Source of the DNA: Coriobacteriia bacterium | GTDB lineage: Bacteria > Actinomycetota > Coriobacteriia > Coriobacteriales > Eggerthellaceae | Direction of reading: 5' to 3' | Assembly (NCBI GenBank): GCA_030530215.1 | Contig: JAUMVJ010000002.1 | Location: 1 to 64,000 of the forward strand | Length of the DNA: 64,000 nt | Shown here: positions 37,769 to 39,144 of the stretch, piece after piece | Layout of the letters: every line of letters starts with the position of its first letter | Numbering within the stretch: the stretch's first letter is position 1 | Made by a program: the position numbers and the translations under genes | Notes under the pieces: generated by a model | Told to the model about the DNA's origin: nothing | The model's input: only the letters and a program-made list of their open reading frames with translations | Databases searched by the model: none

Positions 37769-37901
37769 CTTTTGCGGTAAAACTCCCGCTCGAGGATAAT
37801 TTTTGTCGAAATTACTTTTAGCCCATCGGTGTTTTTTCTTCGGCTGTAAAGTGGCAAGGAAATCGTTTGACCGACAAAGAACATGGGAAAGGAGAACGCT
37901 C

Positions 37902-39144
37902 ATGGTTAAGGCGTTTACCAAGGGTATTGCGGCATTCTTCGTCGCTTGCGCCCTTCTGCTGGCACTGCCAACGCTGTCTTTTGCCAACGACAACACTTCA
38001 GGGGGGGGGTAAAGCTCTAAGCGATTTCACAGATGTCGATTGGAGCACCGCTACACTTAGCCTCGATAAAAGCGAATACACCTTTGATGGGGCGTACGAA
38101 TCCAACGGAATCCAGATAGATTCTCTTAAGGATTATTACGGTAATTTAAATCTGTATGTGGGCGAGGGAGGCTCGAAAGAGCTTCTTTCGACGTCTTCAT
38201 ATGATTTCGATTACCAGTTTTACACTGAGTCAGAAGGCGGAGAAGCGAAGGACTCAGTCAGTGAATCAGGCATTTATTATGTGAAAATCACTTTGAAAGG
38301 CCTGACTGACGGGGATGGGCAGCCGTGCATCTATTACCTTCCCGTAAAAATCACCATTGAAACGGCCGACCCTTATGATTTGAGCGATTACGTAGTTCGT
38401 CAGCCAGCGAACGAACTTAGGCTTTATGTGGGCGATTCGATTCTGTCCAGTACCTCTCAGGTCTTTGAATCTGAGGACTATTCTGAGGCCATTAGGTATT
38501 GCGGAGAGGGCGACCAGCTCCCCAGCAGCGCTTATGCCGTGGACGCCTCTTGGTACAAGGTCGTAGAGGATGAAGATACGGGCGAATATTCTTATACGAA
38601 AATCGATGGCGTTCCTAGCGAAGCAGGCGATTTCGGGATAAGGCTTTCGGGCGCGTCTCCTTATTACGGTGAAATTTATCTGCATTTTAGCGTTAAGGCT
38701 AAGAGGCATACGCATACTCCCGTGGTAAGCAAGGCTGCGGTTGCTCCTACTTACAAGACTGCCGGCTCAACTGAGGAAATCAAGTGCTCCACTTGCGGCA
38801 TCGTTCTTCAGGCTCAGAGCGCGGTTGCTAAGCTTTCCGCAAAGGCTCAGTCCGTCAAGGTTAGCACCGCCATTAAGAGTGTGAAGAAGGCTAAGGTTAA
38901 GAAGAAGGCCCAGACCGTTTCAGGCGCTATCAAGGTTTCTGGTGGCAAGGGCAAGGTGACTTACTCTAAGGTCTCGGGTTCGGGCAAACTCAATGTCAAC
39001 ACTTCCAACGGCAAGGTCACCGTCAAGAAGAAGACCAAGAAGGGCACCTACTCCATCAAGGTCAGGATGAACGTTGCGGCTTCGGCCGATGGCCAGTTCA
39101 AGGCTTTTAGTAAGACGGTTACCGTGAAGGTGAAAGTCAAGTAA
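37902..39144 (+). CDS. Secreted Lys-rich protein, frameshifted at a G9 tract (phase-variable candidate)
   Basis: ATG 37902 follows AAAGGAG by seven bases and opens a signal peptide (KGIAAFFVACALLLALPTLSFA). After ANDNTSGGG the frame ends at TAA 38010-38012, directly behind nine Gs (38001-38009). The rest of the protein, from KALSDFTDVDWSTATLSLDK to the stop at 39144, is in another frame that has no start of its own. One G fewer or two more would join them into a ~414-residue protein. It has beta-rich modules, a HTHTPVV...CSTCG module near residue 270 and a Lys-rich Ig-like tail. It is either phase-variable, OFF here, or a sequencing error. Confidence 0.75.
38001..38009 (+). repeat. Homopolymeric G9 tract
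   Basis: Nine consecutive Gs lie at codons 34-36 of the secreted-protein gene, just after the signal peptide. This tract is where the two parts of the reading frame go out of register. Confidence 0.95.

Follow-up and report, generated by a model that had tools for sequence, protein, structure and literature searches.

A tract of nine guanines that lies between a signal peptide and the frame of its mature protein is most probably a slipped-strand contingency switch, OFF in the consensus sequence and one of a genome-wide set, a reading to which we give a probability of roughly 0.85. The window (the whole stretch of DNA that was analysed) covers the first 64 kb of contig 6 in a draft genome of 1.465 Mb, assembled in 21 contigs and 64% complete. 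Judged from the sequence, the locus would be part of a larger candidate phasome of about 20 genes. Table 1 gives the parts of the locus together with other tract genes of the same genome.

Table 1. Features of the window locus, in window positions, and of tract genes elsewhere in the genome, as contig and position (C3 being contig 3)
Feature	Position	Strand	Basis or state
TTG start candidate opening the mature frame mechanically	37867..37869	+	AAGGA-like site present
Ribosome-binding site AAAGGAG	37888..37894	+	sequence; 7 nt 5′ of the ATG
Signal-peptide ORF, 36 codons and stop	37902..38012	+	translation; homologous N-termini in the contig 9 and contig 17 paralogues
G9 tract, proposed slippage site	38001..38009	+	sole G/C run of at least 7 within the window
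Mature-protein frame, 377 codons and stop	38011..39144	+	translation; one base off the signal-peptide register
Cys-X2-Cys pair segment, preceding the C-terminal module	38710..38835	+	paralogue alignment
Lysine-rich C-terminal module	38851..39141	+	common to several secreted proteins of the same genome
Family B, in-frame copies	C3:10842, C19:1379, C20:130681		in frame
Family B, out-of-frame copies	C3:8373, C19:12078, C19:14318		out of frame; long intact frames 3′
VWA/FctA pilus-tip-like protein	C14:137874		secreted-protein tract gene
Internalin-type repeat protein	C19:6956		secreted-protein tract gene
MBG protein, LPXTG-like end	C12:10692		secreted-protein tract gene
GH53 family protein	C20:257299		secreted-protein tract gene; out of frame
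Acyltransferase with tract	C17:1165		in frame
CDP-glycerol glycerophosphotransferase with tract	C17:15530		in frame
GT2 glycosyltransferase with tract	C17:10722		out of frame
LysR-type regulator, split in two frames by G8 in the DNA-binding region	C1:9896-9903		broken

The first-pass annotation had described a signal peptide with a ribosome binding site that runs into nine Gs and a stop, and this description holds. The ORF from the ATG at 37902 to 38012, preceded by AAAGGAG, translates as MVKAFTKGIAAFFVACALLLALPTLSFANDNTSGGG followed by a stop; it comprises the signal peptide MVKAFTKGIAAFFVACALLLALPTLSFANDNTS, then the G9 at 38001-38009, then TAA, with a cleavage site that, judged by eye, is likely to fall after SFA at about 37985. 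The same annotation had placed the mature protein in another frame with no start of its own. The frame was borne out, being open for 377 codons 3′ of the G9 up to a stop at 39142-39144, a length expected by chance with a probability of about 1e-6, given that off-frame stops occur at 3.6% of codons. The lack of a start was not, as a TTG at 37867 opens the frame mechanically. This TTG is probably not used, because the N-terminus it would give is the signal peptide read out of frame, and the paralogues favour the ATG frame. The coding sequence 3′ of the tract is intact and the single lesion is the tract itself; the promoter scan found no sigma-70-like promoter 5′ of the locus.

The dependence of the reading frame on tract length is apparent from two paralogues in the same genome, on contig 9 (position 46802) and contig 17 (position 5795), which together with the window gene make up Family A. 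In the window gene a G9 separates the signal peptide from the mature frame; in both paralogues a related signal peptide leads into a G8 at the homologous position, and the frame is kept across it and stays open for 878 and 739 codons, respectively. The family members align with the window gene on either side of the tract. Identity to the two in-frame paralogues is 40% and 36% over the N-terminal 232 codons of the mature frame, and 73% and 65% over the C-terminal 144 codons. A similar picture is found in Family B, whose signal peptide, MKSIKRFLMLGVLAAMTAFCLAPGFALADEGG, differs from that of Family A; here the junction is occupied by G8 or G9 in six copies, some of them in frame and some out. An extra copy of this family, at C19:22650, has just four Gs at the junction, as if the tracts were growing in place.

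Read by eye, about 19 secreted-protein genes of the genome carry a tract within the signal peptide, shortly ahead of it or behind it. Of these, 11 are in frame and 8 are out, and all 8 have intact downstream frames (examples in Table 1). Beyond the window, but still on contig 6, a SpaA-type pilin-like gene for 1500 residues has a G9 (C6:71873-71881) about 20 nt 5′ of its ATG, where the tract could have an effect via the promoter or the spacing of the ribosome-binding site, and not via frame.

Taken alone, the single G9 run of the window is not beyond chance, and dinucleotide shuffles of the window give a mean of 7.3 G7 matches compared to 3 observed. What is beyond chance is the placement of the tracts, which recurs genome-wide. 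The genome has 37 G/C runs of at least seven bases: 8 have seven bases, 23 have eight and 6 have nine, with none longer. For these three lengths, extrapolation from the window, where run counts drop about seven-fold from four to five bases, predicts about 18, 3 and 0.4 runs. We applied a strict test, which requires a ribosome-binding site ahead of a start codon, an N-terminus that is basic and hydrophobic, a frame open to the run and a long ORF after it, and which is passed by 14 of these 37 runs compared to 33 of 1755 runs of four to five bases in the same DNA (p about 4e-14). The comparison is conservative, since the shorter runs were drawn from DNA around the tracts that is rich in secreted-protein genes. 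With paralogues collapsed, so that the two families count as one each, 7 of 30 runs still pass (p 2e-6). Three congeneric genomes have no tracts at the junction of signal peptide and mature protein among their runs of at least eight bases, none of the 34 passing the same test (p 2e-5 compared to 14 of 37). In the long ORFs of the window GGG makes up 10.7% of Gly codons and only 1 of 89 Gly-Gly pairs is written GGGGGG; signal-peptide junctions keep pure G tracts despite this rarity.

Across the family, many of the long G tracts that we inspected turn out to be G and C runs clustered in low-complexity DNA and not switches, and raw tract counts are for this reason not used as evidence. For instance, genomes G013 (e.g. 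C63:2503-2720 and C5:8241-8435) and G006 (C1:225276-225375) pack long G and C runs of both strands densely into a few hundred bases, and some of these clusters adjoin masked N stretches; they are not switches of the present kind. Two congeners have G8 runs directly 5′ of start codons (G001:C9:73454 and G003:C2:186760, both on the minus strand), which may be ribosome-binding sites of variable strength.

Tracts are also found in three surface-glycan enzyme genes, for an acyltransferase, a CDP-glycerol glycerophosphotransferase and a GT2 glycosyltransferase. We looked for the GT2 start motif together with its C tract in 138 genomes of this family; four genomes, from three genera, have it, and none has motif and tract in the reversed pattern. 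These four GT2 genes are 56-68% identical in pairs and have C9 or C10 right behind the start codon, two being in frame and two out. Error is a poor explanation for a tract that occupies the same place in different genera in differing states. A complete genome of another genus (G006:C1, near 66020-66414) has a C9 behind the GT2 start, and the AMP-ligase-like gene next to it has a G10 near its beginning. The LysR-type gene at C1:9896, if its split is real, would be a phase-variable regulator.

The window protein itself has no Pfam or NCBIfam match. Its N-terminal part is present only in its paralogues, and in other genomes relatives matched the C-terminal part alone, with the N-terminal part not found. 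The structure model of the whole protein is poor (mean pLDDT 52), the sole part with good confidence being the lysine-rich module, which is modelled as a beta-sandwich. A cadherin/Ig-like fold was considered and discarded, the fold-search matches being generic with TM about 0.2. LPXTG is absent from the protein and its C-terminus is formed by the lysine-rich module, which presumably retains it on the anionic cell wall; the protein would act at the surface in an adhesin- or antigen-like role.

The phase variation proposed in the first-pass annotation gains support from the in-frame G8 paralogues, from at least 12 other tract genes with mixed states and from the recurrence of the GT2 tract in three genera. 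In the proposed mechanism, replication slippage would alter the length of the G tract. A frame-keeping length would join the signal peptide to the mature protein and lead to its export and surface display. The G9 of the assembled sequence breaks the frame and leaves a 36-residue signal-peptide fragment alone, which makes OFF the consensus state of the gene. In this species the locus would belong to a set of about 20 switches that comprises secreted repeat proteins, pilus-type proteins, an extracellular glycosidase and surface-glycan enzymes. We infer that tract length changes within populations, i.e. that switching itself takes place. Some observations weigh against slipped-strand switching: G8-G9 is among the shorter lengths for tracts that switch fast, the tracts of the two best-sampled families are non-independent because each family consists of paralogues, the congeners are without tracts at this junction, and in a draft that is 64% complete a consensus error is possible for the state of any single tract.

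An assembly or sequencing error, in which the true tract length differs, the gene is intact and nothing switches, is the alternative that the first-pass annotation had itself raised, and we consider it improbable. The assembly is a draft, the window contains no long G run besides the G9, and such tracts are difficult to sequence (PMC9187656); moreover G8 is the commonest run length in the genome and most in-frame tracts are G8. However, error cannot put tracts of G7-G9 at the signal-peptide junctions of a dozen genes, nor can it yield 23 runs of eight compared to 8 of seven, and homopolymers of six to seven bases elsewhere in the window ORFs are read through intact. It also does not account for the GT2 tract recurring in three genera in differing states. 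An error at the window tract would alter the state that is called there, but not the nature of the locus.

That the gene is a plain pseudogene, a dispensable surface protein lost to one fixed and irreversible frameshift, agrees with the broken frame in the sole sequence of the locus, but the lesion is at the tract only with 377 intact codons behind it. Moreover, among the roughly 19 genes that carry tracts, every one of the 8 that are out of frame has a long open frame 3′, and ordinary decay would scatter lesions, which makes this explanation very improbable. G runs are able to provoke slippage, and programmed ribosomal or transcriptional slippage on the tract, or initiation at the TTG, which has an AAGGA-like site and opens the mature frame, could give some full-length or cytoplasmic product from G9 with the DNA unchanged. 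We find this extremely improbable, as the sister genes vary in tract length and state, which is unexpected for a conserved programmed signal, and the TTG product would begin with nothing but the out-of-frame reading of the signal peptide.

MutS takes part in the correction of replication slips, and NucS is the other known actinobacterial mismatch-repair system. Among the 30 genomes searched from the order, none gave a match to domain I of MutS, compared to 11 of 14 control genomes. NucS gave no match in this genome or its congeners, and four relatives gave marginal partial matches. The absence of detected MutS and NucS agrees with tract instability, though it falls short of proof. We lean somewhat towards a broader picture, in which a lineage with neither system detected uses homopolymer tracts as a general architecture, with about 20 independently switched secreted proteins, and glycan enzymes in addition, encoded by one small genome of an uncultured, probably coriobacterial organism. 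Their combinations would yield a surface repertoire comparable in scale to that of Campylobacter, and the tracts would have arisen by expansion where signal peptide and mature protein meet, with gene duplication spreading them.

Repeat-based phase variation is best studied in Gram-negative mucosal bacteria. If the reading given here is true, one strain of this small-genome, probably coriobacterial organism would be a mixture of surface types, single assemblies would misreport the surface proteins that are made, and in the order missing mismatch repair may accompany contingency loci. The mechanism is of a kind already known; the lineage and the scale appear to be new, and the value of the finding would lie in these, i.e. 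the lineage and the number of loci, and in the coupling with missing mismatch repair. In the part of the literature that was covered we found no prior description of poly-G switching for this lineage.

Reversible surface variation in a coriobacterium has been described for the Eggerthella lenta capsule (PMC13174815, a preprint). There, however, it comes about by a megabase DNA inversion between inverted repeats and not by homopolymer slippage; the preprint names slipped-strand mispairing as a general mechanism only and leaves homopolymers unmentioned. In scale, the genome resembles the Campylobacter jejuni phasome, for which the abstract of one study (PMC4965091) gives 29 G/C tracts of at least seven bases in strain NCTC11168, compared to 37 in 1.465 Mb here. 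Both are small genomes with many such tracts, and in both, tracts are also found in surface-glycan genes. C. jejuni differs in being Gram-negative, with switching that is experimentally proven, whereas the genes here are mostly for secreted proteins of Gram-positive type with the tract at the signal-peptide junction.

A close likeness is to the experimentally demonstrated sortase-pilus switches bbr_0113 and bbr_1889 of Bifidobacterium breve UCC2003, a gut actinobacterium, in which mixtures of G-tract lengths from G10 to G12 were measured in populations (PMC9187656). In both cases a signal-peptide ORF is followed by a G tract and then by a mature ORF in another frame without an active start, and the length of the tract decides the frame. 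In B. breve such tracts are confined to pilus clusters, one or two per genome, and the protein has an LPXTG motif (PMC9187656), whereas here there are about 19 secreted-protein genes with such a candidate tract, and the window protein is without LPXTG. The window locus thus appears to work like the B. breve switch while not being a member of the sortase-pilus clusters, and two other tract genes of the genome, at C14:137874 and C6:71873, are pilus-like in appearance.
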